In this document: piece after piece, positions 33,201 to 47,629 of the stretch
Numbering within the stretch: the stretch's first letter is position 1
How the letters are laid out: every line of letters starts with the position of its first letter
Assembly (NCBI GenBank): GCA_003586005.1
Contig: NSKI01000010.1
Coordinates: forward strand, 1-64,000
Length of the DNA stretch: 64,000 bases
Source: Haloplasmatales bacterium 4B
Lineage (GTDB): Bacteria > Bacillota_I > Bacilli_A > Haloplasmatales > Haloplasmataceae
Direction: 5' to 3'
Translations under genes and position numbers: made by a program
The notes under the pieces: model-generated
What the model saw: the letters and a program-made list of their open reading frames with translations, nothing else
What the model was told of the DNA's origin: nothing
The model's database searches: none

Positions 33201-33299
33201 AACTACAATTATGAACGTGCTGGAATTATCGCTTTACCAATCATAATTTTACTAGGTACAACATTATTGTTATTTAAGTTTAGAAAAAGTGTGATATAG
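30219..33299 (+). CDS. Large surface protein: signal peptide, Ig-like repeats, C-terminal membrane anchor
   Basis: A 1026-residue protein starting at GTG 30219 behind GAGGGGG. Residues 1-27 are a signal peptide (LYIMIFALFSVLVFAFS). Residues about 35-112 form a bacterial Ig-like/DUF5011-type domain (TEYIEYGATAIDFEDG; GTYDITYFVTDSDGN). Residues about 120-240 look like a beta-sandwich module (SSESGYDFLKYYVNG; LDEGDNTVTWQYSKD). About eleven repeats of roughly 60 residues follow, each with a LNGxxY-type strand, an 'IGNHTLTINGxxxY' core and a closing 'INFTIEP'. The end is a transmembrane helix (AGIIALPIIILLGTTLLLF) plus KFRKS, so it is exported and held in the membrane with repeats outside. It is the first gene of the operon and is followed one base later by another membrane protein. 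Adhesion or sensing is my inference. Confidence 0.8.
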   Translation: MKKSLYIMIFALFSVLVFAFSKSINVEGTNGSVPTINLINSEIIYLKIGTEYIEYGATAIDFEDGNLNNSIQTYDSSLDINNAGTYDITYFVTDSDGNTASKTRQIIVFDTADYIKISEPISFHNDSLYPWVLVNIDGKAAMQSNNKLGNTTSSLSINVNSKAILSFDWKVSSESGYDFLKYYVNGVEQSRISGYKDWETVVIDLDEGDNTVTWQYSKDYSVDVGSNSGFIANVNVIRIDFDDLTTTINGSFNYYDGLKINCNRSEDLDFSINSVDGYDKSYAGYQDINYNIDVFYQGQRIPFNVTRRITVEPIINNIEDGGIYEDNIKVTFDGGIASLNGKDYESGSEIKQIGNNSLIIYGMNDYSKTVNFQVIPSLNDGEVFYDTYTPNINASSMMLNGQPFYNDEITEIGNHTLTINGLNEYTQTIHFQIIPSLNDGEVFYETYSPNINAKSLILNEQAYANEKITNAGNYELTINGVGNYNQTINFTIEPVYRVVEEGRYTGSIIPIISEIDAMYELNGSSYNVGDKITEVGNHTLKVIGENGYIKKIEFTVLEQVINLKNEGVYKYFLAPIISNAILKLDGEDYTSGTMIFTVGEHTLQGYGLNGYTFTYTFTITEQVINLEDSGVYDNFVTPHIPNAQLFLDNENYLSGTEINTIGEHLLTVVGNNYINHYHFTVEPVVNGAEDGKEYFSPIAPNFSGGTLTLNGEEYISGSIISKIGNYSLIISGVNGYIKSINFKISPTIKDLDIITGTFSPNINANSMTLNDQVYQNEEISQIGNYVLIVNGVGNYTEIINFTIEPIFGVIDGKDCVGRAIPVIDGSSASYKINGMDYEIGDFVELGEYSLTVIGENGYNRTINFNVVEHESNLLNDGIYFNSITPTSNLSSYTLKLNGNLIENDIPITRVGYNELTIIGSNGYRTTIKFTLLNNANVVNGKIYTQPLLIEKINAKMFLNGVEITEDTLVNKQGKYKLEIIGVGDYKEIINFEYYNYNYERAGIIALPIIILLGTTLLLFKFRKSVI

Positions 33300-33300
33300 T

Positions 33301-35094
33301 ATGATAAAATTTTTTCAAAATGAAGCTTTTAATATCCTATTATTTTTTATAGGATTTGCACTTGTATTAGTTGTGATTGGTTTTATACGCGAATTTAAAT
33401 TAAAACATCGAAAAAAAATAAATTTTAAAAAATTTTTAAAATTGAAAAAGGCATTTGAATTAAGAATAAATAAAGCTTATCTTTTTTTCAATTTTCTATT
33501 TATTATTTTATCAACATATTATGCATTAGTCATCATCAGAAATCCGGTCTATAGTATTTATATAATAATCGTCGAGTTGTTAAATGTGATGCTATTTATA
33601 ATACTGTATTTACATATAAGCAGTGTTAAATATAATAAAGATATATCAGTATATAGTAATTATCATCGAATTATTAGTAAAAGTTTTGATAATAGAGTTC
33701 AGTTGTTAGAACAAATCAAAAATCTTAAACATATTTATAATACTTTAATTGTTGAATGTAACGATTTAAATACTGATTTTTCAAAATACTTTAATAGTTA
33801 TACTGGGATTGATAATTTACTAAGTACACTTCAACCTATCGATGAGGTTATCAAGTCGTATCAAGAACAGTCAAATAATTTTGATGAAAGTATTACTTAT
33901 AAATTTGATTACGCATTAAAAACATTTCTAAAAACAGGTGAGTATAATGCTTTAACTATAAATGAATTTAAATTTTTAGACAATGTATCATTTAAAAAAA
34001 TCTTAAACTCAATTAATAATGAACAAAAACAATGTATTTTTAGTTTTTCTTTAAATAAATTAAAGGAAAATCAAATTGTTTCATCTGAACAATTAATGGA
34101 AATGATATTGAAATTAAATTCACTAAAAATATCTATAACTGATGAATTTATTATTGAAATCTTGAATTATCTTCATTATCAAGCGGAATATAAGAAGCGA
34201 ATCCTTGCCTTTTTAACAGATCAAAAATTAATTTCTGTAAATGTTTTATGTAATTTTGTTCATGTGAAAGATTTATCGTGGATTTATGATTTGCCTTTAG
34301 CTAAAATTATTGATAAAAAAGATGCTTTAATGGTTTTTGCCTCTATGATTAATAATAATGCTACTAATTGTGCGTTTAAAATTTTAACAACATTTGACAT
34401 TAAATTTAATAGTGATTTAAAAAAAGCTGTAATACAAGAAAAGACAGAAAATGAAACTAGAAAAATGTTTGCTGTTTATAGTAGACTTTTAGTAACTGAT
34501 GATTTTGTTAATAGTAAATCAATAAAGTATGAGAATTTAGCTATAATATTAAATCATTATTATGAAGATTATTACCCTCAAGGCAATGATGCCGAAAAAA
34601 TTAGAGAAATAGTAAAACGTCAAACATTTGAAGAAAATGCCGAATATATTGAGACATCATATAATCATGTTAAGGATGAATATAAAGATTTCTTTATAAA
34701 TATTGTGAATACGCTGTTTATATACAGTAATAGTTCTTGTGTTGATAATGAGTTTATCAACTATGAAAAAATTTTAAATCAATTTTCGGAATATCGTAAA
34801 AATATCAACATAAAAGAATTGAATATTCTAGATGTATTTGTAAAAACGTTAATTCTAATTAATGAAGAAGAAATTAGTAAAATAAATAGAATTTATCAAA
34901 TGCTAGATGAAAATGTTTATAAAGCATTTAAAGGTAAATTGGCAAAAAGAGATTTACACTATGATAAGCGAGTTTATGTTGGGAAAACCATAATCAAAAA
35001 CCTAACAAGTAATAGTAATATTAAAAATTTTAAAAGAGTTTTATATAGAATTGAAAATAGTCGCGCGACATTGGATAAAGTAGTAAATATATAG
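33301..35094 (+). CDS. Membrane protein with large helical cytoplasmic domain, unknown
   Basis: A 597-residue protein. Residues about 12-30 form a first membrane helix (ILLFFIGFALVLVVIGFI), followed by a very basic loop and two more helices between about 60 and 105 (FFNFLFIILSTYYALVII; IIIVELLNVMLFIILYL). The remaining about 490 residues are charged, alpha-helical and Asn/Lys/Glu-rich, with no recognisable catalytic motif. It starts one base after the stop of the surface-repeat gene and precedes the first vWA gene by 12 bases. I infer that it links the surface protein to the cytoplasmic signalling proteins, possibly as a scaffold; the family is unrecognised. Confidence 0.7.
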   Translation: MIKFFQNEAFNILLFFIGFALVLVVIGFIREFKLKHRKKINFKKFLKLKKAFELRINKAYLFFNFLFIILSTYYALVIIRNPVYSIYIIIVELLNVMLFIILYLHISSVKYNKDISVYSNYHRIISKSFDNRVQLLEQIKNLKHIYNTLIVECNDLNTDFSKYFNSYTGIDNLLSTLQPIDEVIKSYQEQSNNFDESITYKFDYALKTFLKTGEYNALTINEFKFLDNVSFKKILNSINNEQKQCIFSFSLNKLKENQIVSSEQLMEMILKLNSLKISITDEFIIEILNYLHYQAEYKKRILAFLTDQKLISVNVLCNFVHVKDLSWIYDLPLAKIIDKKDALMVFASMINNNATNCAFKILTTFDIKFNSDLKKAVIQEKTENETRKMFAVYSRLLVTDDFVNSKSIKYENLAIILNHYYEDYYPQGNDAEKIREIVKRQTFEENAEYIETSYNHVKDEYKDFFINIVNTLFIYSNSSCVDNEFINYEKILNQFSEYRKNINIKELNILDVFVKTLILINEEEISKINRIYQMLDENVYKAFKGKLAKRDLHYDKRVYVGKTIIKNLTSNSNIKNFKRVLYRIENSRATLDKVVNI

Positions 35095-35106: not shown

Positions 35107-35766
35107 ATGGTCGATCAGAATAAAATTATTAATGGCATTAGAAATTGCAAGTTATTATTAAGCATTATAGTTGATAATAGTTCTTCTATGAAAGGCGAAA
35201 AAATCCAAAAATTAAAAGCTGCTATATCAGACTTCAATTATTATATGCTGACAACTAATTTAAGTAATTATTTTGAATATACATTAATTGTTTTTGATGG
35301 ATTACATTCTAAAAAGCTTAAAGATTTTAATAATAATAATTTTAATGTTGAGGAAATGGTTGAAGGAGGATTAGCCTTACTTGAAAATTCACTTCAGCTT
35401 GGGTTTGATGAACTATATAAACGCTTAAGTGAATTAAATTATGATGGCGTCCAATGTTTTAAACCATGGTTAATCCTCTTAAGTGACGGACAAAGTTATG
35501 AAAACATCGATTTAGCAGTAACTAAATTAAAAGATTTATACCAAAATGGTAAACTTACCTATTTTCCATTTTTACTCTCTAGTAATAAAATTGATGAACG
35601 TCTTGATGAATTAAAAAATGTCAAAAAACCGATATCTATTTTAAATAACCAATATGATCAATTATTTATGTGGATGTATGAAACAGTAAAAAAGCGAGTG
35701 GTTACACCAATAGAGAGGTCAATGAAATTAGAGAGTGATTGTTTTGATGGGTGGACGATGAAATGA
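35107..35766 (+). CDS. TerY-like von Willebrand factor A (vWA) domain protein
   Basis: A 219-residue protein that is almost all vWA domain. The metal-ion-dependent adhesion site (MIDAS) DxSxS motif is DNSSS (23-27) in IIVDNSSSMKG, and a second conserved Asp lies in LLSDGQSYE. TerY-type vWA proteins are cytoplasmic and commonly occur with a PP2C phosphatase and a kinase; exactly that order follows here. The ribosome binding site is GGAGGGG. The stop TGA overlaps the ATG of the phosphatase gene (ATGA), indicating tight coupling. Confidence 0.85.
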   Translation: MVDQNKIINGIRNCKLLLSIIVDNSSSMKGEKIQKLKAAISDFNYYMLTTNLSNYFEYTLIVFDGLHSKKLKDFNNNNFNVEEMVEGGLALLENSLQLGFDELYKRLSELNYDGVQCFKPWLILLSDGQSYENIDLAVTKLKDLYQNGKLTYFPFLLSSNKIDERLDELKNVKKPISILNNQYDQLFMWMYETVKKRVVTPIERSMKLESDCFDGWTMK

Positions 35767-36713
35767 TAATCGAAAAATGGAAACAAAGCCATACATATGT
35801 TATTGGTAAGGACCATGTGAAATTAAATCAATCATGTCAAGATCGAACCTATTATGCTAAAGAAGATGGTGTACATGTTATTGCTCTTGCTGATGGAGCA
35901 GGCTCTAGAAAAACTTCAGAAATTGGAGCTGAAGTTGTAACTAAATCAATATGTGAATTATTAGCAAGTGAATTCTTTAATTTCTTTATTGGCTGTGAAA
36001 AAAGAGGGAAAGATGAGTTAGATTATTTAAAAGATAATAAAATGTTAAAAAAAATAATTCTTAATACATTGTTAAATGAACTAAAAAAGCAATCTGAAAA
36101 AGTAGATGAATTATCATCGACATTATTGTTTTGCGCTCTTTATAAAAACAAATATATTATTGGGCATATTGGTGATGGAGTGATTGGAGGAATATTTGAA
36201 GAAGCTGATGGTTTAACAATTAGAACTTTATCAGAGCCTAAAAATGGTGGAGCTCCTAATATTACCTTTTTTGTTACTGATAATGACGCCATCGATCATT
36301 TACGAATTACCTCGGGAGAATTTACTAATTTAAGAGGAATTATCTTGATGTCTGATGGTCCTGCTGAAGTTATGTATAATAAAAATACAGGCCTAAATGA
36401 AAATGTAATCAAAATTTTTAATAATTTTGATAAAAAAACCCCCAGTGAGTATAATCAAATCCTTAGTAAGTTCTTATGTGAAAAAATAGCAAATTACAGT
36501 AGTGATGATTTAAGTTTAAATTTGTTGTATTTAGAGAGTCTATATGCATCGGTCCAAGATACATATACTTTAAACTTATTAAGCGATATTTCGTCAGTTG
36601 ATCAAATAACTTATAAATCAAAATATTGTGTGGAATTAGACCCAACAATTAAGTCAATAAATAAAAATTTCTCCTCAATCGATGATGTAAGGAGATACCT
36701 AAAATGGATTTAA
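35763..36713 (+). CDS. PP2C-type protein serine/threonine phosphatase (TerY-P set 1)
   Basis: A 316-residue PP2C phosphatase. ATG 35763 is preferred because it overlaps the vWA stop (ATGA); GTG 35751 is a less likely start. The metal-binding Asp residues are in NQSCQDRTYYA (D27), ALADGAGSRKTSEIGA (D44), LMSDGPAE and the late NYSSDDLSLNLL. The IIGHIGDGVIGG strand is also typical. It is expected to dephosphorylate targets of the adjacent kinase. The kinase start lies inside its last codons, so vWA, phosphatase and kinase form one translationally coupled triad. Confidence 0.9.
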   Translation: MIIEKWKQSHTYVIGKDHVKLNQSCQDRTYYAKEDGVHVIALADGAGSRKTSEIGAEVVTKSICELLASEFFNFFIGCEKRGKDELDYLKDNKMLKKIILNTLLNELKKQSEKVDELSSTLLFCALYKNKYIIGHIGDGVIGGIFEEADGLTIRTLSEPKNGGAPNITFFVTDNDAIDHLRITSGEFTNLRGIILMSDGPAEVMYNKNTGLNENVIKIFNNFDKKTPSEYNQILSKFLCEKIANYSSDDLSLNLLYLESLYASVQDTYTLNLLSDISSVDQITYKSKYCVELDPTIKSINKNFSSIDDVRRYLKWI

Positions 36714-38062
36714 AATTTGGAACAAATAATATTATTTTCATTGAAGAAAGTTGTTTTTTAGCTGATGAATTTAATCAATTTTTAATAAGTTTGTTTAAAA
36801 AACTTGATGGGAGAAATTTAACAATCTGCGTAGATCAAAATATTGACAAAACAATCGATAATTATAAATTGACTTTAAACGATAGGGATGCATATACAAT
36901 TGAAGGGTTCATTGACATTTTCGAGCACCTAGAGATTATTCAGAAAATAGATACAAGAGGTTATTTAGATTTTAATGATTTAGGGAATATCATTAGAAAT
37001 AATAAATTACTAAATGTATTAATTTTAACACAAAAAGAAAGTGTCTATAAGTCGTTTAAAAAACTAGAATTAGATTCTGAAAATCTTGCTTTAGCAAGAT
37101 TTAACAAAGAATTAATCGAATGGATTACTTATCCTAAAGTTGGTAATGATGCCTTTTTTATCGAAAAAGATATATATATAAATAAAGTAGATATTGATAA
37201 TATTGATTATGTCTTTTCTCCAAAATATGGTCACTTAAAATTAGATAAAAGGATCCATTTTAAGGGTGGAGAAGGAATTTTGTATAAAACATATAATAAT
37301 CAATTATGTAAACTTTATTATGATGAGCACCAGACATATGTTAATTATAAAAAAATTGAACAGATGTTAGAAATTGATATTAATAACCCATTTATAAATT
37401 GGCCAAAAGATTATTTGTTTTATAAAAATGATTTTGTTGGTTATCTAATGGATGAGATAAAAGGAGCTAGTAGCCTAGATGTCCTTAGAATTAATATGTT
37501 TGAAGGGTATAACATCTTTGATTTATATGTTTTAAGTTACAATTTATTATTGAATATTGATTATTTACATAATAAAAATATCCTTGTAGGTGATTTAAAA
37601 CTTGATAATATACTAGTGAAATCACCTGTTGAAGTTTATTTAATTGATTGCGGAAGTTATCAAATAAAAGATTTTTCATGCGATGTTTGTCATCCAGAAT
37701 ATACTAAAAAAGTATATACAAGTGAAGAGTTGAAAAAGAAGTTAAGGACAATAGAGGATGAATATTATCCAATCAATAAAATTATTTTTGAGTTATTGAT
37801 TGGTAAAAATCCAAATTATAATCGCGACTTAGGTGAAGTAGATATTGAAAATAAAAATAATTTTACTTTTCCGCTTGATTTAAGCCAAATAAAAACCTAC
37901 ACAAGAGATTTGGTATTATGGATTGGATTAAGCGAAAGGATGAGAGAATTTTTTTATTACTATTTCAAGGAAAATAAAATAACTTACCTATCAGAATGGT
38001 TAAATGAACTAGAAGTATATATAGAAAACGCAAAAGCAAAAAAAAGAAACGGAGAGAGATAA
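36704..38062 (+). CDS. Divergent protein kinase with N-terminal PIN-like domain (TerY-P set 1)
   Basis: A 452-residue protein. Residues about 1-140 alternate strands and helices (NIIFIEESCFL; LNVLILTQKESVYKSF; IEWI) in a way that suggests a PIN/NYN-like Rossmann domain, though I cannot confirm active-site acids. Residues about 170-435 are a kinase fold: glycine-rich FKGGEGILYKTY (186-197), candidate ATP Lys203 in CKLYY, catalytic loop VGDLKLDNILV (295-305) with Asp297 and Asn302, and DCG (315-317) replacing DFG. HRD has become VGD, as in many bacterial TerY-P kinases. It lies between a PP2C and a vWA gene, with AAGGAG for its start. Activity is likely but unproven because of the altered motifs. 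Confidence 0.8.
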   Translation: MDLKFGTNNIIFIEESCFLADEFNQFLISLFKKLDGRNLTICVDQNIDKTIDNYKLTLNDRDAYTIEGFIDIFEHLEIIQKIDTRGYLDFNDLGNIIRNNKLLNVLILTQKESVYKSFKKLELDSENLALARFNKELIEWITYPKVGNDAFFIEKDIYINKVDIDNIDYVFSPKYGHLKLDKRIHFKGGEGILYKTYNNQLCKLYYDEHQTYVNYKKIEQMLEIDINNPFINWPKDYLFYKNDFVGYLMDEIKGASSLDVLRINMFEGYNIFDLYVLSYNLLLNIDYLHNKNILVGDLKLDNILVKSPVEVYLIDCGSYQIKDFSCDVCHPEYTKKVYTSEELKKKLRTIEDEYYPINKIIFELLIGKNPNYNRDLGEVDIENKNNFTFPLDLSQIKTYTRDLVLWIGLSERMREFFYYYFKENKITYLSEWLNELEVYIENAKAKKRNGER

Positions 38063-38063
38063 T

Positions 38064-38759
38064 ATGAATACTAATAATGATTTCAATTTTGATTTATTTG
38101 GAGACTATAAATTACCAGATTTGGACAGTTCTTTAAAACTGCCACTATGTTTAGTTCTTGACCAAAGTGGTTCAATGGCTGAAAGAACAAGATCTAGTAA
38201 TGGCTCTATCGTAAAAATTGATGAATTAAACTCAAATGTTGAAAAGCTAATCAATTATATTAAGCATGATCCAAAAGCGAGCAAAATTTGCGATTTATGT
38301 ATAATTGCTTTTGGTGGAAGAGTTCAAGTAGTAACAAACTATAATAGAGTAGATCAAATAAGACCTTTTAAACTAGTTGCTGGTGGTAGCACACCATTAG
38401 GTGAAGCTGTGGGACTAGCCATTGATTTGCTTAATAAAAGAAGACAATATTACCGAGATAATGGGATTGAGCACTATAAACCATTGATGTTACTGATGTC
38501 TGATGGAGAACCTACTGACAGATATGATACTAGTGCTAGAATTTGTTCTGAAAAAGTTAGTGGAAAAGAGCTTAAAATTTATCCTGTCGGAATTGGGAAT
38601 AACTATAGAGAAGACATATTAAAAGAATTTTCGCCTTATGTAAATCCGAAACGAATTACTGATATGGCAGGGTTTATGAAATTGTTTGAACTTTTAAGTA
38701 GAAGTACAAGTAATCCTACCGATGACTCAATTGATAAATGGTTTAATGAAGATATTTAG
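38064..38759 (+). CDS. TerY-like vWA domain protein
   Basis: A 231-residue vWA protein closer to canonical TerY. The MIDAS motif is DQSGS (33-37) in LVLDQSGSMAER, the Thr position is in AGGSTPLGEAV, and the distal acidic motif is LMSDGEPTDRYD. The N-terminal about 27 residues are an Asp/Asn-rich tail. It starts one base after the kinase stop. It closes the first transcription unit: a strong terminator follows, then a new promoter. Two vWA proteins bracketing one phosphatase/kinase pair suggests they serve as different adaptors for the same signalling module. Confidence 0.92.
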   Translation: MNTNNDFNFDLFGDYKLPDLDSSLKLPLCLVLDQSGSMAERTRSSNGSIVKIDELNSNVEKLINYIKHDPKASKICDLCIIAFGGRVQVVTNYNRVDQIRPFKLVAGGSTPLGEAVGLAIDLLNKRRQYYRDNGIEHYKPLMLLMSDGEPTDRYDTSARICSEKVSGKELKIYPVGIGNNYREDILKEFSPYVNPKRITDMAGFMKLFELLSRSTSNPTDDSIDKWFNEDI

Positions 38760-38770
38760 AAGCAATTAGT

Positions 38771-38804
38771 GATGATTTTTGTTGTGGACAAAAATCATCT
38801 TTTT
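38771..38804 (+). terminator. Terminator splitting the locus into two transcription units
   Basis: GATGATTTTTGT (38771-38782) pairs perfectly with ACAAAAATCATC (38788-38799), followed by TTTTT. Confidence 0.85.
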
Positions 38805-38852: not shown

Positions 38853-38881
38853 TTGACATTTGTCAATATTTGGGAGATAAT
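38853..38881 (+). promoter_or_regulatory. Promoter of the SPFH/ESCRT-like transcription unit, with palindrome over the -35
   Basis: Perfect -35 TTGACA (38853-38858), 17-nt spacer, -10 GATAAT (38876-38881). The -35 is half of the palindrome TTGACATTTGTCAA (38853-38866), which could be an operator. Confidence 0.75.
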
Positions 38882-38912: not shown

Positions 38913-39764
38913 ATGAAAGAAGTAATTAAGTTTTTAGGGAAAAAAGATGATTTAGTTTGGATTTATCCAAAAACATCGATAAATAATGATGCCATGATTC
39001 AAGTGGATATGGGCTATCAAGCGATAATGGTCCGAAATGGTGAAATTGATATCCCTTATTTAACAGGTACTAATAAAGTTTTTGATGATAAACAAACAAA
39101 ATTTTCAATCTTTAATAATAAAAAATATGTTAGTGATTGTAGTATTTATTTTTTTAATAAATCTCGAGAAGTTAGTGCTAGAGAATGGGGAACTAAATAT
39201 CCAATAAAATATTTTGACAAAAGTTATAAAATAGAATTATCTATGCGGGGGCATGGAACATACAAGCTTTGTATAGAAAGTCCAAGATTGTTTTTAAAAA
39301 GTTTTAAAATCGATAACAATTCACTTTTTAAATTAGAGTCATCTATTAAGGATATGGTTATTTCAAAATTATCTGAAACATTAGCGAAAGAATTAACTAA
39401 GGGAAGTTATGATTTGTTGAGTATTCATGCTTTTTATGATGTAATTTCTAAAGCCGCGCAAGATACACTAAATGTTGAAATTGAGCAATATGGTTTCAGT
39501 ATTTATGACCTATCAATAGCGAATTTAACTCCAGTTGAAGAAGAACAAATACATGCTTTGAAAGAGGCTAAGTTTAAAGCAACTATTTTCGAAAATGAAT
39601 TTGAAATAGTTAATAAAGCAAGAAAAGCAAATAACGAAGATATCATAATGCAAAAGCAAATGAAACAACAAATTTGTACTAATTGTAATACTAATATAGA
39701 TAGTAACATGAAGTTTTGTCCTAATTGTGGTAAAAATTTAAATGAGAGTGAGTTTGGTGATTAG
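38913..39764 (+). CDS. SPFH-domain protein with C-terminal zinc ribbon (YdjI-like)
   Basis: A 283-residue protein. ATG 38913 is chosen because TAAGGAGGT lies just before it; an upstream in-frame start at 38850 lies within the promoter. Residues about 20-215 resemble the SPFH (stomatin/flotillin-like) domain of bacterial YdjI 'virion core'-type proteins (QVDMGYQAIMVRNGEI; SREVSAREWGTKYPIKY; a helix after QYGFSIYDLSIANLTP). A helical stretch follows, then a zinc ribbon with ICTNCNTNID and FCPNCGKNL. In Bacillus, YdjI-type SPFH proteins recruit the ESCRT-III-superfamily protein PspA and its regulators to the membrane. An SPFH protein heading a unit with an ESCRT-III-like protein fits that theme. 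Confidence 0.88.
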   Translation: MKEVIKFLGKKDDLVWIYPKTSINNDAMIQVDMGYQAIMVRNGEIDIPYLTGTNKVFDDKQTKFSIFNNKKYVSDCSIYFFNKSREVSAREWGTKYPIKYFDKSYKIELSMRGHGTYKLCIESPRLFLKSFKIDNNSLFKLESSIKDMVISKLSETLAKELTKGSYDLLSIHAFYDVISKAAQDTLNVEIEQYGFSIYDLSIANLTPVEEEQIHALKEAKFKATIFENEFEIVNKARKANNEDIIMQKQMKQQICTNCNTNIDSNMKFCPNCGKNLNESEFGD

Positions 39765-39765
39765 A

Positions 39766-40071
39766 ATGATATTTAGTAAACAAAATTCACAATTTAATAA
39801 AATTCAAAAAGATGTCTATAAAAAATTAAATGAACTTGAATCTATTGTTAAAGATCCTGTGATTAGAAAGAGAATTACCATTTTGATTGATAAAACATCT
39901 AGTTTAAAAAATACACAAAATAGTAAGATTATTGGTTTGCTTGAAGATACTTCGAACTATGTTCGAGAGTTAAAAAAAGAATTAATGAATCCTGTTGATT
40001 TAGTCTTAAGTAATTATCTTGATAAAATTGATTCATTATTAAATCAGATTAAGTATGAAAGTGAGGAATAA
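39766..40071 (+). CDS. Small coiled-coil protein, unknown
   Basis: A 101-residue, entirely helical, Lys/Asp/Leu-rich protein. ATG 39766 starts one base after the SPFH gene's stop; a longer start at 39742 would overlap it more and lacks a ribosome binding site. Heptad-like spacing of Leu/Ile is visible (IQKDVYKKLNELESIV; YLDKIDSLLNQI). No family is recognised. Its tight packing between the SPFH and ESCRT-like genes suggests it is a structural partner, possibly a short ESCRT-III-like or adaptor helix bundle. Confidence 0.7.
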   Translation: MIFSKQNSQFNKIQKDVYKKLNELESIVKDPVIRKRITILIDKTSSLKNTQNSKIIGLLEDTSNYVRELKKELMNPVDLVLSNYLDKIDSLLNQIKYESEE

Positions 40072-40072
40072 T

Positions 40073-40642
40073 ATGTTTTGGTTTAGTAAAAAGAAAAAAA
40101 TAAAAAATAAAGCAGAAAAGACATGGCGATTGGAAAATGAAATCTATCGACATATCCATGAACTTGAGAATTTATTTAAAACTTTAGAGGAAACAAAAGC
40201 AAAAGGTAAAAAAGAACAGAATATCAACTTGCAGCAATTAATTGCTAATGAGTATCTACTTATAGAGAATAAAATTAAGATACAAACAATTTCTTTAAAA
40301 GAGATGCAAAAAACATATTTGGAAAATCAAGATTATTTAAATAAAGAACAATTACTAAATACTTATAAAATGATTGATGACTTTACAATATCTAGTGTTG
40401 CTGATTTAAAGAAAATTGTGGTTAAAATTAAAGATATTCAAGAAAATAAGCAAGAAGAAGATAAAGAGCGGAAAAATGTTAGTGATGTTTTTGAAGATAG
40501 TGTAAACAGTTATAGTTCTAATCTGGAAAATGAACGGGCAAAACAACTCACAGAATCTTGGGCTAGAGAAAATGAAGATGAACAATTAATAAATGAATTA
40601 ATTAGTGAAGAAGCTTTAGTAGAAAACAAGGAGGATTTATAG
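40073..40642 (+). CDS. Helical protein, possible second ESCRT-III-like subunit
   Basis: A 189-residue, highly charged helical protein. ATG 40073 follows GTGAGGA and sits one base after the previous stop; the longer in-frame start is upstream of that site. It opens with MFWFSKKKKIKNKAEKTW, a basic amphipathic start like the next protein's MGMFKSKAEK. Long helices follow (YRHIHELENLFKTLEET; LIANEYLLIENKIKIQTI), and the last about 50 residues are acidic (SWARENEDEQLINELISEE). Basic N-terminal half and acidic C-terminal half is the ESCRT-III charge layout. I see no clear MIM motif. ESCRT-III-like is a hypothesis; generic coiled coil is the fallback. Confidence 0.6.
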   Translation: MFWFSKKKKIKNKAEKTWRLENEIYRHIHELENLFKTLEETKAKGKKEQNINLQQLIANEYLLIENKIKIQTISLKEMQKTYLENQDYLNKEQLLNTYKMIDDFTISSVADLKKIVVKIKDIQENKQEEDKERKNVSDVFEDSVNSYSSNLENERAKQLTESWARENEDEQLINELISEEALVENKEDL

Positions 40643-40645
40643 AAT

Positions 40646-41230
40646 ATGGGTATGTTTAAATCGAAAGCAGAAAAAGAACTTGATAGAAAAATGAAAATAA
40701 AGAAAACTATATCAGGTATGAATAAGTTTGTCTCTCAAATTGAAGCGAAAAAAAGCAAATTAATTGAACAAGCTAGTTTAGCTAAATTAAAGGGGATTGA
40801 TTCTCAATATAATTTAGCTGTTCAAGGTTTGAAAATTGCTTTAGCTCAACAAAAAAGAGTTGAAACGATGTTATTAAATTTTGAAATCACTAGTCAATTA
40901 AAAGATATATCTGCTATGACCCAGGGATTTTTTGAATCTATGAGTATTTTCTCTAAAGAATTGTCTACTGATACTAAAGGGAAAGACCTTTATAAAGTGC
41001 AACAACAATTTGAAAGAGCGATGCTTAAGTCATCAATGCAGACAGAAAAACTTGAGACGTTCTTAGATTCAACAGAATCATTATTTGAAAATTTAAGTGT
41101 TGATTCAAATTCTGTTACCGATTCAGAAATTGAAAAATTAATTGAAACACAAGCATCTAATATGACTGATGACTTAGATGTTCAAATTGAAGAGAAGTTA
41201 AAGAGTTTAGACAGCAAACAAACATTATAA
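40646..41230 (+). CDS. ESCRT-III/CHMP-like protein with C-terminal MIM1-like motif
   Basis: A 194-residue, all-helical protein with AAGGAGG upstream. The N-terminal half is basic and predicted to form a long alpha1-alpha2 hairpin (about 20-80: KFVSQIEAKKSKLIEQASLA; VQGLKIALAQQKRVETMLL). The pattern continues with FEITSQLKDISAMTQGFFES and KVQQQFERAMLKSSMQTEKL, then acidic helices with SEIEKLIETQ (160-169), closely following the CHMP/Vps24/Did2 layout. The last helix has D178-x-x-I181-x-x-K184-L185-x-x-L188, matching the MIM1 consensus [DE]xxLxx[RK]LxxL that eukaryotic ESCRT-III subunits use to bind Vps4 MIT domains. The next gene encodes a Vps4-like ATPase with an MIT-like domain. PspA/Vipp1-type homology alone would not explain this motif. 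Confidence 0.68.
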   Translation: MGMFKSKAEKELDRKMKIKKTISGMNKFVSQIEAKKSKLIEQASLAKLKGIDSQYNLAVQGLKIALAQQKRVETMLLNFEITSQLKDISAMTQGFFESMSIFSKELSTDTKGKDLYKVQQQFERAMLKSSMQTEKLETFLDSTESLFENLSVDSNSVTDSEIEKLIETQASNMTDDLDVQIEEKLKSLDSKQTL

Positions 41231-41244
41231 GAAGAGGGGATATT

Positions 41245-42390
41245 ATGGAGAATCAACAGTTTTTACTTGATGCATTTAATACTTACTATAATAACGGTAT
41301 GGAAGCCAAGAATAAGAATAATATACCTCTAGCTAAGAAAAATTTCACAAGATCAGCTGAAGCCTTAGTTAAACTGGCAAAAATGTCCACAGGAGAATTA
41401 CGTAAATCTCGTTATGAAAGGGCAAGCCGGCTTATTGATTATATTAATAATTTACAAGTTTCTGTAACAAGTGCTAATAAGATTAGTAATGCAAGTGCTA
41501 ATGTCTCGAAAAAAACTTCTAAAGAAGATAATAGCGAAACTATTTGGGAATCAGTTACTGTGCCTAAAATTAGTTTTGATGATATTGCGGGATTAGATGA
41601 TGTAAAAGAAGCTGTTCGAGTAAGAATTATTTTGCCAAGAAAGTATCCAGAAGTTTACCAAAAGTATAAAAAGAAATCTGGTGGTGGAGTATTAATGTAT
41701 GGACTACCAGGAACAGGAAAAACCATGGTTTCTAAGGCGATAGCTAAGGAAATTGATGCTAAGTTTTTTGAAGTTAAAAGTAGCGATATTGTTAGTAAAT
41801 GGTTTGGTGAAGCTGAAAAGAATATAAAAAGTTTATTTGAAACGGCTAGAAAAGAAAAGAACGCTGTAATATTTTTTGATGAATTTGAAGCATTAGGTGC
41901 TAAACGGGGAGGAAATTCAAGCGTTATGGCAAGAATTATTCCAGAACTTTTAGCCCAAATTCAAGGGTTTAATGAAACTGAATCAAATATTATGCTGCTT
42001 GCGGCAACTAATAGACCATGGGATATTGATAGTGCCTTTTTAAGACCAGGTCGTTTTAATGAGAAATTATATATACCACTACCTGATTATGAAGCTAGAG
42101 AATTTATAATTACAAGAGCTTTAGAAGAGCTCCCAGTAGATAACGATATTAATATCAACGAAATTGTAGAATTTACTGATGGTTTTAATGCTTCAGATGT
42201 TGTGGAGTTTTGCGAAAGATTAAAAGATGGACCGATTAAACGGACAATTGAGAGCGGTGGCAATGATATAAAAAATATAACATCAGAAGATGTTTCATTA
42301 ACTAAAGCTAAAGTAAAGAGTTCTGTAAATCCACAGGATGTAATTGCTTTAGAAAAATGGAAAAATAATTTTGAAGATGATAATAATTAA
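41245..42390 (+). CDS. Vps4/CdvC-like AAA ATPase with N-terminal MIT-like domain
   Basis: A 381-residue meiotic-clade AAA ATPase. Residues 1-70 are three amphipathic helices in MIT style (FLLDAFNTYYNNGMEAKNK; ARKNF-type ARSAEAL region at 30-45; ASRLIDYINNL). A Ser/Asn-rich linker follows (about 71-105). The ATPase shows FDDIAGLDDVKEAV (111-124), Walker A GLPGTGKT (153-160), the Vps4-type pore loop SKWFGEAEKN (184-193), Walker B VIFFDEFEAL (208-217), sensor 1 AATN (253-256) and LRPGRF (266-271) before LYIPLPD. The C-terminal helix (ALEKWKNNF) resembles the katanin/Vps4 C-terminal helix. It is not FtsH: there is no protease domain or transmembrane segment. In archaea and eukaryotes such ATPases remodel ESCRT-III filaments; here it directly follows the ESCRT-III-like gene. 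Confidence 0.88.
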   Translation: MENQQFLLDAFNTYYNNGMEAKNKNNIPLAKKNFTRSAEALVKLAKMSTGELRKSRYERASRLIDYINNLQVSVTSANKISNASANVSKKTSKEDNSETIWESVTVPKISFDDIAGLDDVKEAVRVRIILPRKYPEVYQKYKKKSGGGVLMYGLPGTGKTMVSKAIAKEIDAKFFEVKSSDIVSKWFGEAEKNIKSLFETARKEKNAVIFFDEFEALGAKRGGNSSVMARIIPELLAQIQGFNETESNIMLLAATNRPWDIDSAFLRPGRFNEKLYIPLPDYEAREFIITRALEELPVDNDININEIVEFTDGFNASDVVEFCERLKDGPIKRTIESGGNDIKNITSEDVSLTKAKVKSSVNPQDVIALEKWKNNFEDDNN

Positions 42391-42412: not shown

Positions 42413-43315
42413 ATGGAAACTAATATTAAAAATTGTCCATTTTGTGGAACAATTTTAGATGAGAAAAGCATTTTATATAAAGGATATTATGTTTGTACAA
42501 GCTGTGCAAATACCGTAAATGATAGTAAAAATGCAGATTTAATCCGTAAGTATAGTAGTTATATTAGGAATTTAGAATTTAAGCGGGCAAATTTACTGCG
42601 GAACGAAATGCTTGATGAAGCTATTTTGGATGTAAATGAGCTGCAGTTATTTACTTTTTATTCCTCTATTTTAGATCTGTTTATTACTAAAGATCCTAGT
42701 AAAATTATTAAGTTTTTAAATGATAGTACAGCTATAGATATTGGAGTAGCAATTGAGGTAATTAATTTTTTAACTAGTTTGTCAATGTATATTGAAAAAC
42801 TAGGTAGATATATTTTGAAATACGCAAGTATGCAAGAAAAGTATTTAGCACATTTAAATAATCACGAGCTTGATATTGCTTTAATAGAATTAAGGAAACG
42901 TTATTTTAAATCAATCCAAAATAAGTCAAGTTTTATCCAAGATAGTTTTAAACAAAAGAAAATGAATCTAATTGAAATAGTTGAATTAGTTCGCAATAAT
43001 GATCCGGCTAATATCGCTTGCCTGTATGTAGTTTTTGATGATGTAGCTATTGAGGAATATCTTCCGGATGAAATAAATACTTATTTATTGACTTGTGATT
43101 ATGCCTTAGAATTATATTATGAAAAAAATAATCATGAAATAAGTAAAAACTACCGCGATTATTATAAAAAAGCTAATTCGTTAAGAAAATTACTTAATCT
43201 CAATGCAGAAGTAAAATATAAGTGGCAAAAAAGGATCACTAAAAATCTATGGAAAAGAGTAAGTTATCTTATACTACTAATTTTGTCTGTTGCGATAATT
43301 AGATTAGGGATGTAA
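42413..43315 (+). CDS. Zinc-ribbon protein with C-terminal tail anchor, unknown
   Basis: A 300-residue protein with an AAGGAGGGG ribosome binding site. The N-terminus is a zinc ribbon (CPFCGT...VCTSCANTV, about 8-36). About 220 residues of helical, Leu/Lys-rich sequence follow without known motifs (NELQLFTFYSSILDLFI; ACLYVVFDDVAIEEYLPDE). The last about 25 residues are a membrane helix preceded by basic residues (KRVSYLILLILSVAIIRLGM), so the protein is likely tail-anchored with its bulk in the cytoplasm. It lies between the Vps4-like ATPase and the second kinase. A membrane recruitment role for the ESCRT-like proteins is inference. Confidence 0.7.
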   Translation: METNIKNCPFCGTILDEKSILYKGYYVCTSCANTVNDSKNADLIRKYSSYIRNLEFKRANLLRNEMLDEAILDVNELQLFTFYSSILDLFITKDPSKIIKFLNDSTAIDIGVAIEVINFLTSLSMYIEKLGRYILKYASMQEKYLAHLNNHELDIALIELRKRYFKSIQNKSSFIQDSFKQKKMNLIEIVELVRNNDPANIACLYVVFDDVAIEEYLPDEINTYLLTCDYALELYYEKNNHEISKNYRDYYKKANSLRKLLNLNAEVKYKWQKRITKNLWKRVSYLILLILSVAIIRLGM

Positions 43316-43318
43316 TTA

Positions 43319-44590
43319 ATGTTTAAAAATGGTGAAATATTAAATAATTCAATAAAGATTATTGATTTTATTGGTTCAGGAGGACAGGGCGAGGTTTATA
43401 AAGTTCAATATCAAGATGCATTACTTGCTTTAAAATGGTATTATCCTAAATCGGGTACAAAGCAACTAAAAAAAACACTCGCTAACCTCATTTCAAAGGG
43501 TTCTCCAAATGATTTTTTCCTTTGGCCTCTAGCTTTAGTAGAATACAATAACCAATTTGGTTATTTGATGGAGTTACGTCCTAAAACCTACAAAAGTTTA
43601 CTTGATTGGGTTAGTTTAAAATTTGATATGAGTTTAACTTCGATTTCTAAAGCGTGTTTTAAATTAACCGATGCTTTTCATAAATTACATGCTAAAGGAT
43701 TAAGTTACAAAGATATTTCGTTTGGGAATTTGTTTATTGATCCAAATTGTGGTGATATCTTGATATGTGATAATGATAATGTTACAGCTAATGGTATTAA
43801 TGTAAGTGGACTTTTAGGAACTCCTAAATTTATGGCTCCCGAAATAGTGATGGGGAGTACGATACCTAATACGGAAACAGATCAGTTTTCATTAGCAATA
43901 TTACTTTTTTATATATTGTTGATATCACATCCTTTTGATGGAGCATTAGAAGCCAATATTAAATGTTTTGACGAGAGTTCATTAAGTAAGTTATATGGAA
44001 CTAATGCAATCTTTATATATGATAAACTAAATGATGTTAATCGTCCTGTTCCTGGAATTCATAATAATGCGATTAACTTATGGAAGTTATATCCACAGTA
44101 TATAAAAGAACTATTTAATAATACTTTTACTCTAGGAGTTAAAAATCCAGCTAAAAGAACAAGGGAAAGTCAGTGGAGAAATGCTTTTTTAAAATTATAT
44201 AATTCGCTTACAAAATGTTCGCATTGTGGAATGGAAAACATATATGATATAGAGGTCCTTAACACTAGAGGGAAATTAGAACCTTGTATTTTATGTAACG
44301 AAGAATATCCTATTGCACCAAGAATTCGCATCAATAATAATGTAGTAGTCTTAGATGATGAAAAACAATTATTTATAAGTCATATTAAAAAAAGTGATCC
44401 CTCTAATCTAAGTGTCATAGCTGAGGTTAGAGAATTAAATTCTGAGTTTTATCTTACTAATGTTTCTAAAGATATTTGGAAATATATTACAACTTCTGAA
44501 ACAATTAATATCTTACCTCAACAAGTAGTTAATCTAAAAGATAATAGCATGATAGATTTTGGATTAGTTAAAGGGGAGATAAGGTTTTGA
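43319..44590 (+). CDS. TerY-P-type protein kinase with zinc finger and C-terminal beta domain
   Basis: A 423-residue protein. The kinase domain covers about 10-290: Gly loop GSGGQGEVYKV (19-29), ATP Lys39 in LALKWY, catalytic loop SYKDISFGNLFID (129-141) with Asp132 and Asn137, DND (151-153) in place of DFG, and GTPKFMAPEIV (168-178). The substitutions are typical of kinases of bacterial TerY-P triads. Residues 300-326 hold two CxxC pairs (CSHC, CILC), a zinc finger. The C-terminal about 90 residues are beta-rich (LSVIAEVRELNSEFYLTN; SMIDFGLVKGEIRF) and may be FHA-like, which would bind phosphothreonine. Its stop overlaps the next phosphatase start. Confidence 0.88.
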   Translation: MFKNGEILNNSIKIIDFIGSGGQGEVYKVQYQDALLALKWYYPKSGTKQLKKTLANLISKGSPNDFFLWPLALVEYNNQFGYLMELRPKTYKSLLDWVSLKFDMSLTSISKACFKLTDAFHKLHAKGLSYKDISFGNLFIDPNCGDILICDNDNVTANGINVSGLLGTPKFMAPEIVMGSTIPNTETDQFSLAILLFYILLISHPFDGALEANIKCFDESSLSKLYGTNAIFIYDKLNDVNRPVPGIHNNAINLWKLYPQYIKELFNNTFTLGVKNPAKRTRESQWRNAFLKLYNSLTKCSHCGMENIYDIEVLNTRGKLEPCILCNEEYPIAPRIRINNNVVVLDDEKQLFISHIKKSDPSNLSVIAEVRELNSEFYLTNVSKDIWKYITTSETINILPQQVVNLKDNSMIDFGLVKGEIRF

Positions 44591-45366
44591 TGAATAATTT
44601 TCGTGTTTTTAGTGATAGTGCAAAAGGAATTATGCATGAAAATCAAGATGTTGGTTTAGCTAAGGTAAAAGCTAATCATGCTTATTTAATTGTAAGTGAT
44701 GGCCATGGAGGAAAAGATTATATCCGTAGTCACATTGGTGCTAAGCATGCAGTTCTTGCCTTAGAGGCAATATTTAATGATTTCGCAAGTAATTATAAAA
44801 ACTTTGATTCAATAAATCATGCTGAACAAACTTTAAAAGAAAAGATTATAACATCATGGAGAAAATTAACTATTGATCATTATATAAATAATCCTCTACC
44901 AAGTTATGAAATTGATCCTTATAAGCTTTATGGGGCAACGCTGTTAGGCGTTTTATTAAAAGATGATTATATGGTTGTAATTCAAATCGGTGATGGTAAT
45001 ATTCTTGCACTTTTAGAAAATGAGGATATAGTTCAATATTTTAAAAAGGATAAAAAATTAGTTGGCAATGAAACGACGTCAATTTGTGAAATTAATGCAA
45101 TTAAAGACTTACATGTTAAAATTGTAAAACTTAATGTTTTACCAATTTTAATAATGGTAACAACTGATGGTGTTATAAATTCATTTACAGATATTAATGA
45201 TTTTTACAGTTTACCTAAAGAAGTAGTTATGGAAATTAAATCATTAGGTTTTAATAAAACATGTCAAAATTTTAGGCAATTGCTTAATGATATGGTAAAT
45301 AAAGGCAGTGGAGATGATTGTACAGTTGCGATACTTTATAATTTTTCCCCTACTAATTTTAAATAG
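44590..45366 (+). CDS. PP2C-type protein phosphatase (TerY-P set 2)
   Basis: A 258-residue PP2C phosphatase starting at ATG 44590, which shares a base with the kinase stop (TGATG). Metal-site motifs are HENQDVGLA (D20), IVSDGHGGKDYI (D37-G40), VIQIGDGN, TTDGVI and the C-terminal SGDDCTVAIL. The family role is to reverse Ser/Thr phosphorylation by the coupled kinase. It differs in sequence from the phosphatase at 35763, so the locus contains two separate kinase/phosphatase pairs rather than a recent duplication. Confidence 0.92.
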   Translation: MNNFRVFSDSAKGIMHENQDVGLAKVKANHAYLIVSDGHGGKDYIRSHIGAKHAVLALEAIFNDFASNYKNFDSINHAEQTLKEKIITSWRKLTIDHYINNPLPSYEIDPYKLYGATLLGVLLKDDYMVVIQIGDGNILALLENEDIVQYFKKDKKLVGNETTSICEINAIKDLHVKIVKLNVLPILIMVTTDGVINSFTDINDFYSLPKEVVMEIKSLGFNKTCQNFRQLLNDMVNKGSGDDCTVAILYNFSPTNFK

Positions 45367-45383
45367 AGAGAAGATGAGTATAT

Positions 45384-46085
45384 ATGGGATTAAGGAAATT
45401 AGGAGTAGAAAAAATATCGGCTAGACCACTTGAGTTTATCTGGATTTTAGATGTTTCAGGCTCAATGCATGGAGAAAGAATAGCTGCATTAAATTATGCA
45501 ATAAAAGAAGCAGTCCCAGCAATGCAAGAAGCAGCACAAAGTAATGTGAATGCGGAAATTATGGTGCGGGTGCTTACTTTCTCTACTGATTTTACCTGGC
45601 ACATAAGTGAGAGAACTCCTGTTAAGGATTTTGAGTGGAGTGATGTTAGAGCAGAAGGTTTATCAAACCTGGGCTTAGCACTTACTGAACTCGCAAGTAT
45701 ATTAGATGAGGAAAAGATGCCAGAACGGGGATTACCACCTGTTTTAGTTTTAATTACTGATGGAGAACCTACTGATGATTATAAAGTTGGGTTAGACTTA
45801 ATAATGTCAAAGGTATGGGGAAAAAAATCAGTTCGCCTAGCAATTTCCGTAGGAAATGATGTTGAAAAAACAGTTTTAGAAGATTTTATTGGTAATAAAG
45901 ATATAGAACCATTTGAGGTTGAAAATGCTTCACAACTTACACAATATATAAAATTTGTATCTACGAAAGTTTTGTCAAGCGTTTCTTTGGTAAAATCTGA
46001 TGCTCATTCATTATTTAAGTTTGATTTTGAATTACCAGAGTTAGATGATGAATCGCCTAACAATGATGTATACGATAAGTTTTAG
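45384..46085 (+). CDS. TerY-like vWA domain protein (TerY-P set 2)
   Basis: A 233-residue vWA protein. The MIDAS motif is DVSGS (23-27) in IWILDVSGSMHGERIA; the conserved Thr region is EGLSNLGLAL and the distal acidic motif is LITDGEPTDDY. It ends in an acidic tail. It completes a kinase-PP2C-vWA triad in the order opposite to set 1 (vWA-PP2C-kinase). In Ter-dependent stress systems the vWA protein is thought to act as a metal-bound adaptor for the phosphorylation module. Confidence 0.93.
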   Translation: MGLRKLGVEKISARPLEFIWILDVSGSMHGERIAALNYAIKEAVPAMQEAAQSNVNAEIMVRVLTFSTDFTWHISERTPVKDFEWSDVRAEGLSNLGLALTELASILDEEKMPERGLPPVLVLITDGEPTDDYKVGLDLIMSKVWGKKSVRLAISVGNDVEKTVLEDFIGNKDIEPFEVENASQLTQYIKFVSTKVLSSVSLVKSDAHSLFKFDFELPELDDESPNNDVYDKF

Positions 46086-46102: not shown

Positions 46103-47581
46103 ATGGAAACTAAAAAAATAGTTGAGATTTTAAAACAAATAGATATTAATATATTATTAAAACAAAATACGTTTAAGGCTGTTTTAGCCGATTTATTATA
46201 TGATTATGAAGCTGAACGAAAAATTTTAAATACAATTCACAATAGTGTAAATGTGATTGAAAAGCTTCATAAGAGTAATAATAAGATTTTAGAGTGCCAA
46301 AATATTAAAACAGAATTATTAAGTTATGGACTTAATAGCACTACTGTAGAATGGGCAATTGAAATATGGTCAGGTGTTTTAGGAATAAATAATGTAAGAA
46401 ATATTGAAGGTACATTTAATCAATTTATTAAACTGAGTGCAGGTGGTTCTTTTACTATCGCATTAAAAGACACAAAAGTTTATGCTTGGGGAAATAATAA
46501 ATGGGGTCAACTTGGTAATGGAACATTATTTGATTGTATTAGACCAGTTGAGATATCAAGCAATTTTAATTTTAATAATAATGAAAATATTGAAAATATT
46601 TTTACTTCATTTCGCTCAACGTACCTTTTAACTACAGAAGGAAGATTGTTCTCATGGGGAAGTAATGAATATGGACAACTTGGTGATGGAACAATTATCA
46701 GTAAGAATTATCCAATAAATATTACAAGTAAGTTTAGTCTACAAAATGGTGAAAAGATATTACATTTTAGTACCGGTGGTTTTCATTGTTTATTAATAAC
46801 ATCATTTGGTAGAGTCTTCTCATGGGGAAATAATGAGTATGGACAACTTGGTGATGAGTCAAATATTAATAAAAATTTACCTGTTGAAATTACAAACAAG
46901 TTTTCATTAGTAAATAATGAAAAAATTGAAAATATTAAAGTTGGCTTAGGACACTCAATGGTTACTACTTCAATGGGTAGAGTATATACATGGGGAAATA
47001 ATGAATATGGGCAGCTTGGTGATGGAACAAAAACTAAAAGGAAGAAACCTACTGATGTTACAAGGGATTTTTTATTCGCGGATAATGAGAAAATTAACTT
47101 TATCGCATTAGGTGCTCTTCATTCATTAGTTGTTACCTCTAGCCGAGTATTTACTTTTGGAAGCAATGAAAGTGGTCAATTAGGAGATGCAACTACTAAA
47201 ATGAGATATAAACCTGTCGATATAACAAATCGTTTTAGCCCTTTACCTGAAGAAAAGATAATCAAAATAGAAGCAGGAAGAAACTATTCCTTAGCGCTTA
47301 CTTCTATAGGTCGTGTTTTTTCATGGGGTAATAATAAATTTGGACAACTTGGTATCGCTGATTATATTACCGGTACCACAGGACCTATGGATATAACAAA
47401 CAATATTATTAATAATGATGAAGAGTTGATTGTTAATATCTTTACTGGAGCTAATTCAACTCATAGTTATGCCATAAGTAATAACGATAAAATTTATGCA
47501 TGGGGTAATAATGAATATGGTCAACTTGGAGAAGGATCAACAATTGAAAAAAGGTCTCCTATCGAGATAAAGATAGGTTAG
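46103..47581 (+). CDS. Seven-repeat RCC1-like beta-propeller protein
   Basis: A 492-residue protein. Residues 1 to about 105 are helical (VEILKQIDINILLKQN; IKTELLSYGLNSTTVEWAIE). The rest contains seven RCC1 repeats, each with a signature such as VYAWGNNKWGQLGNGT, LFSWGSNEYGQLGDGT or IYAWGNNEYGQLGEGS; seven copies are what one closed RCC1 propeller needs. There is no signal peptide, so it is probably cytoplasmic. Three neighbouring signatures are spaced exactly 168 bp apart (46654, 46822, 46990), suggesting expansion by duplication. It follows the second TerY-P triad by 17 bases and is the last gene of the unit. A scaffold or substrate-recognition role is inference. Confidence 0.9.
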   Translation: METKKIVEILKQIDINILLKQNTFKAVLADLLYDYEAERKILNTIHNSVNVIEKLHKSNNKILECQNIKTELLSYGLNSTTVEWAIEIWSGVLGINNVRNIEGTFNQFIKLSAGGSFTIALKDTKVYAWGNNKWGQLGNGTLFDCIRPVEISSNFNFNNNENIENIFTSFRSTYLLTTEGRLFSWGSNEYGQLGDGTIISKNYPINITSKFSLQNGEKILHFSTGGFHCLLITSFGRVFSWGNNEYGQLGDESNINKNLPVEITNKFSLVNNEKIENIKVGLGHSMVTTSMGRVYTWGNNEYGQLGDGTKTKRKKPTDVTRDFLFADNEKINFIALGALHSLVVTSSRVFTFGSNESGQLGDATTKMRYKPVDITNRFSPLPEEKIIKIEAGRNYSLALTSIGRVFSWGNNKFGQLGIADYITGTTGPMDITNNIINNDEELIVNIFTGANSTHSYAISNNDKIYAWGNNEYGQLGEGSTIEKRSPIEIKIG

Positions 47582-47594
47582 AATAAATAATTTC

Positions 47595-47629
47595 AAGGAA
47601 GAATGAGTTCATTCTTCCTTTAGATTTTT
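47595..47629 (+). terminator. Terminator after the RCC1 gene (copy 1 of a repeated element)
   Basis: AAGGAAGAATGA (47595-47606) pairs with TCATTCTTCCTT (47609-47620), then TTTTT a few bases later. The 34-nt stretch 47596-47629 recurs at 52686-52719 with one difference. Confidence 0.75.

Follow-up and report, generated by a model that had tools for sequence, protein, structure and literature searches.

Does a bacterium possess an ESCRT-III filament protein together with a Vps4 motor? Systems of Vps4 plus ESCRT-III are confined to archaea and eukaryotes according to Makarova et al. 2024 (PMC10936438), and a 2023 review (PMC7615534) describes bacteria as lacking a clear Vps4. According to Ravi et al. 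2024 (PMC11237479), Vps4-like ATPases have moved to bacteria, where a TPR/6TM gene displaces snf7, and PspA or Snf7-clade proteins of bacteria occur with other AAA+ ATPases. The window, by which we mean the whole stretch of 64,000 nucleotides analyzed, comes from a gut bacterium of the class Bacilli and encodes both core ESCRT parts, the filament-type protein J and the Vps4-type motor K (Table 1). The two open reading frames named in a preliminary description of this DNA were found where it placed them, 14 bases apart and each with a strong ribosome-binding site. The identity that it proposed for them is supported computationally by homology, domain architecture, conserved pairing, and a conserved tail. 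We consider J and K likely to be a bacterial ESCRT-III/Vps4 pair that works by the membrane mechanism proposed below, including tail-MIT docking and phospho-control.

Table 1. Features of the J-K locus and its surroundings, in window coordinates
Feature	Coordinates	Strand	Description
Upstream genes	35107..38759	+	Weak VWA (35107), PP2C (35751), kinase (36704), VWA (38064)
Predicted terminator	38771..38799	+	Between upstream VWA/PP2C/kinase genes and J-K unit
Predicted promoter	38853..38881	+	Before G; TTGACA-17-GATAAT, 11/12; consensus match only
G	38913..39764	+	SPFH/Band-7 with C-terminal zinc ribbon; Pfam Band_7_1 1.4e-13, Zn_Ribbon_1 1.2e-6; first gene of J-K unit
H	39742..40071	+	Helical, 109 aa; small gene at matching position in several other loci
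I	40055..40642	+	Helical, 195 aa; most Bacillota loci have a gene at the corresponding position; possible second ESCRT-III, diverged
J	40646..41230	+	ESCRT-III (Snf7/CdvB-like), 194 aa; helices 7-49, 52-110, 113-148, 159-193 (profiles, model)
MIM1-like tail codons of J	41177..41209	+	DVQIEEKLKSL, residues 178-188; conserved between variable linkers
K	41245..42390	+	Vps4/CdvC-like AAA ATPase, 381 aa; MIT residues 2-68, AAA about 108-340, C-terminal Vps4-type helix 344-379
MIT domain of K (residues 1-68)	41245..41448	+	Three-helix model, MIT profile match
L	42413..43315	+	N-terminal zinc-ribbon-like cysteines; one predicted C-terminal membrane segment
M	43319..44590	+	Ser/Thr protein kinase domain; Pkinase 2.5e-16
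N	44587..45366	+	PP2C-type protein phosphatase; PP2C_2 3e-26
O	45384..46085	+	VWA (TerY-like), intact DxSGS MIDAS; VWA 1.5e-9
P	46103..47581	+	RCC1-repeat beta-propeller; RCC1 4.9e-78; last gene of unit
Predicted terminator	47595..47620	+	After P; 11-bp stem, T tail

Homologues of J were collected first from 11 loci and then by whole-genome searches. Because a sequence search of the PDB with the J profile gave no significant match, structure and profile comparison were used. Snf7 was the Pfam family most often matched by single J relatives (26 of 35, with the runner-up family at 4 of 35), and the best of these matches (6e-6) was collinear across nearly the whole model. The window's own J, taken alone, fell below Snf7 detection in Pfam, and the matches come from its relatives only. 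Snf7 scores of the family are near those of many accepted archaeal ESCRT-III proteins; an S. acidocaldarius control also fell under the Pfam cut-off. In hhalign comparisons, the bacterial J profile matched TACK archaeal ESCRT-III with a probability of 93.3 and a score of 53.8, against a maximum of 25.0 among 200 block-shuffled or reversed decoys, and this comparison is not circular because the TACK set was picked via Pfam Snf7. The match was also obtained with Bacillota-only (score 36.1) and Planctomycetota-only (33.0) subsets of J. Thermoplasmatota ESCRT-III proteins encoded near Vps4 gave a probability of 96.0 and a score of 61.4, a comparison that is partly circular because this set was picked via J-profile matches. 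The positive control, Thermoplasmatota versus TACK ESCRT-III, scored 46.5.

The predicted model of J, of medium confidence (pLDDT 74), has the ESCRT-III helix order, a long alpha1-alpha2 hairpin and then alpha3-alpha5. Its top five Foldseek matches among 350,542 PDB chains were Sulfolobus CdvB/CdvB2 (probability up to 0.99, with a weak E value of 0.07). Together with the TACK match above decoys, these best matches bear out the assignment of J to ESCRT-III, and the basic-to-acidic charge layout of CHMP proteins was likewise present (net +8 in the N half, −9 in the C half). An all-helical protein could also be of the PspA/Vipp1 type, or a generic coiled coil, lying beside a Cdc48-derived AAA ATPase and resembling ESCRT-III by convergence. 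The J profile did not match PspA (PspA_IM30, PF04012), the hhalign probability being 1.5 and the score of 19.3 at the decoy level (19.5), and membership in PspA was rejected for want of a profile match. Nor would five-for-five CdvB top fold matches and a conserved MIM-like tail be expected of a random coiled coil. In view of these results and those for K given below, we regard convergence as quite improbable.

The MIM1 pattern at the C terminus of J that had been pointed out from the sequence is there at residues 178 to 188 and is conserved among relatives. In a 12-member J alignment, I181 is invariant and D178, E/D182, and L/I185 are nearly invariant; the entropy of the tail is 1.51 versus 2.36 in the preceding linker, and the residues on both sides are variable. 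A strict MIM1 motif ends 16 of 51 J relatives, while shuffles of the same tails averaged 0.6 and never exceeded 4. Such a conserved island between variable linkers is what would be expected of a docking motif, and by analogy with established ESCRT biology the J tail would engage the MIT domain of K.

K has the pore loop SKWFGEAEKN that had been reported for it, a Walker A motif of GLPGTGKT, and a complete AAA domain. The proposed N-terminal MIT fold was recovered in the predicted model as a three-helix bundle (helices 2-23, 27-47, and 50-68; pLDDT mostly >90), and the K N terminus matched the archaeal Vps4 MIT domain in a profile comparison (probability 92.4, score 37.1, 72 columns; decoy maximum 21.1, n = 100). 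Pfam MIT gave poor scores with single K-type sequences (best 0.006), K showed no signal against the one yeast MIT sequence compared, and a PDB search with the MIT region of K alone found nothing. The best NCBIfam model for K was CdvC (NF041006; E value 7e-63, residues 1-377 on model positions 1-369 of 370). K was filed as Vps4-like rather than CdvC because its 212.7 bits lie under the equivalog cut-off of 650 bits, which was also missed by the tested Thermoplasmatota Vps4 (229.7) and a TACK Vps4 (536.9). The Vps4_C terminal helix was matched by 11 of 12 K relatives at E values up to 1 (best 1.3e-4); the window's K, at 0.022, was below the curated cut-off. The motifs of K are mixed, with a Vps4-type PW (NRPWDID) and a Cdc48-like LRPGRF, and because of the latter its placement with Vps4 rests on phylogeny and not on every motif.

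That phylogeny comprised 103 AAA domains rooted on FtsH, with a database chain sequence as yeast Vps4 both here and in the MIT comparison, and it replaced a first tree that lacked Thermoplasmatota, contained very long branches, and was poorly resolved. K fell inside the Vps4 clade (98/91) with yeast Vps4, archaeal Vps4, and Planctomycetota ATPases, to the exclusion of Cdc48, whose D1 and D2 domains formed a separate single clade (98/89). Descent of K from Cdc48, the second half of the convergence argument, draws on p97/Cdc48 D2 being the closest PDB sequences to K; archaeal Vps4 proteins, however, also have p97 as their next-best PDB match after Vps4, and trees forcing K to group with Cdc48 were rejected (p-AU 0.005 and 0.002). 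Within the Vps4 clade, Bacillota K (95/97), Planctomycetota K, and Thermoplasmatota Vps4 formed one group (97/94), which would fit either acquisition from archaea or an origin before the split, the two histories named in the preliminary description. The AAA domains of some gut archaea (loci L016, L017, L018, and L181; 100/98 among themselves) nest within the Bacillota K clade. These archaeal proteins have other N termini, and J was not detected in L016 or L018; the nesting has the appearance of transfer between archaea and bacteria of the gut.

Of the bacterial loci examined, which come from Bacilli, Clostridia, and Planctomycetota, nearly all have J directly beside K, as the window does. With centre genomes included in each count, the J family was found in 10 of the 395 genomes sampled from the window's class, as 3 good matches among 341 Clostridia genomes, and in 39 of 199 sampled Planctomycetota, about a fifth; in Bacilli and Clostridia the occurrence of J-K is sporadic. 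Several of the sources are metagenome bins and the nearest non-bacterial Vps4 relatives of K are from Thermoplasmatota, as might be seen if archaeal DNA had been misbinned into bacterial genomes or very recently transferred from an archaeon. The operon, however, has a GC content of 28.2-28.5%, near the 29.8% of its flanks, and is syntenic in a second Haloplasmataceae genome, in which J is 81% and K 73% identical to those of the window. Moreover, the pair is spread over many unrelated genomes of the three groups, and Bacillota K and Planctomycetota K each form their own clades. Contamination by archaeal DNA was rejected on these grounds, and we give an archaeal source of either kind hardly any weight.

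In Planctomycetota, J often has another MIT-AAA protein on the side away from K, with an AAA domain that lies on the TACK/yeast branch (96/83, with a weak inner placement). Two different MIT-AAA genes thus flank the ESCRT-III gene in L130, L131, L132, L137, L139, L152, L154, and others, the upstream copy branching with TACK and yeast Vps4 and the downstream copy with Thermoplasmatota and Bacillota. Some Planctomycetota loci have extra helical genes of 205-209 aa upstream of the second Vps4-like gene (L034:5740-6369, L034:6400-7026, L220:7915-8532, and L226:6008-6625); by eye these look like further ESCRT-III-type paralogues, and Pfam gave no support for them as ESCRT-III. Tandem J genes occur in L217 (genome G087), the second within a 623-residue protein. 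One Bacilli bin from reindeer gut has another MIT-like AAA protein after J-K (L012:11826-13064), with an SPFH gene beside it.

The ten genes from G to P are predicted to form one transcription unit, bounded by a promoter-like site and two terminators. I may be a second ESCRT-III protein: it matched Thermoplasmatota ESCRT-III with an hhalign probability of 42.6 across 164 columns, which is suggestive only, and, its direct relation to J being weak (probability 8), it is listed as a candidate. L is a possible membrane anchor. Nearly all Bacillota loci have an SPFH (flotillin-like) gene close to J-K. VWA/PP2C/kinase sets stand on both sides of the J-K core (35107-38759 and 43319-46085), and in the kinase of the upstream set a simple pattern search showed no HxDxxxxN catalytic motif. 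Farther upstream, positions 30219-35094 encode two proteins that are syntenic in L005, one of 1026 aa with hydrophobic ends and a bacterial surface Ig-like domain, the other of 597 aa with hydrophobic segments.

Signaling genes in this arrangement could also belong to an anti-phage or conflict system in which K is an IetA-like defense enzyme, the kinase, PP2C, and VWA proteins are TerY-type signaling components, and J is a substrate or sensor. PADLOC matched K to IetA (2.5e-38), the kinases to mad6/PD-T4-6, and one VWA protein weakly to TerY, and the sporadic occurrence of the family in Bacilli and Clostridia would suit such a role. The CdvC match of K nevertheless exceeds that to IetA (213 versus 130 bits) and covers the MIT domain, no IetS-like protease was seen in the gene annotations of the unit, and no close match to J was found in phage or plasmid records. 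The kinase/PP2C/VWA genes are also not common to all J-K loci, some of which keep the core without any being detected. We therefore think a defense system unlikely; it concerns purpose more than mechanism, because the J-K mechanism could still serve defense.

For the ESCRT-III/Vps4 pair itself, we infer the following by analogy with established ESCRT biology. J, perhaps with the possibly related I, would polymerize on the inner surface of the membrane, where the SPFH-zinc-ribbon protein G marks the site. With its tail (DxxIxxKLxxL), J would dock on the MIT domain of K; J subunits would then be threaded through the pore of the K hexamer in an ATP-driven extraction, so that the polymer is remodeled or disassembled. 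Phosphorylation, through the kinase, PP2C, and VWA proteins of the unit, could switch the process. The most probable role of J-K would be envelope repair or membrane scission/vesiculation under stress, chosen because of the SPFH link and because no match to PF04012 was detected in the window's genome. Such a task for an SPFH protein has a parallel in YdjI, by which PspA is localized to the membrane (cited in PMC10936438).

We regard J-K as a new branch of the ESCRT-III/Vps4 kind in bacteria, because Makarova et al. 2024 confine the pair to archaea and eukaryotes and the bacterial Vps4-like systems of Ravi et al. 2024 have snf7 replaced. No published report of a bacterial pair of this type was found in the literature searched; preprints and most subscription papers were outside its scope, and priority is not certain. 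We put forward more tentatively, as somewhat more doubtful than probable, that bacteria own an old ESCRT branch in which filaments of J, perhaps with I, are recruited by SPFH proteins, cut or bud membranes, and are disassembled by MIT-Vps4. This branch would be common in Planctomycetota, many of which have the ESCRT-III gene between two different Vps4-like ATPases, and sporadic in Bacillota, with kinase/phosphatase control at the present locus. A bacterial pair alters the inferred history of the machinery, which would either have arisen early or have been transferred long ago. Such a pair offers bacterial hosts for tests of ESCRT function and bears on membrane shaping in Planctomycetota, which are unusually compartmented bacteria.

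Among known systems, the ESCRT-III/Vps4 of Thermoplasmatota (clade name from Makarova et al. 2024, PMC10936438) is nearest to J-K in both the AAA tree and the J profile comparison, and like it has an MIT-Vps4 of ~370 aa close to a CHMP-like ESCRT-III. J-K differs in its bacterial host, in the SPFH gene kept close, and in the kinase/PP2C/VWA genes of the window's locus. Crenarchaeal CdvB and CdvC resemble J in fold and K over the full length of the CdvC model, but no CdvA was identified at J-K and K lies outside the TACK Vps4 clade. Archaeal "Meth_adaptin" loci (PMC10936438) place an SPFH protein with a coiled coil and zinc ribbon beside ESCRT-III/Vps4, as the SPFH-zinc-ribbon protein is placed here, and other archaeal ESCRT loci described there contain kinases and phosphatases, as does the J-K unit; the adaptin-appendage proteins of the former were not identified at the J-K locus. 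The ydj operon of Bacillus subtilis (Ravi et al. 2024, PMC11237479) likewise combines an ESCRT-III-superfamily protein with an SPFH-zinc-ribbon protein and a zinc-ribbon membrane protein, but its polymer protein is PspA and no Vps4 is listed for it. The bacterial Vps4-like ATPases in the same study resemble K; in those systems snf7 has been displaced by a TPR/6TM gene, whereas J-K keeps ESCRT-III beside Vps4.
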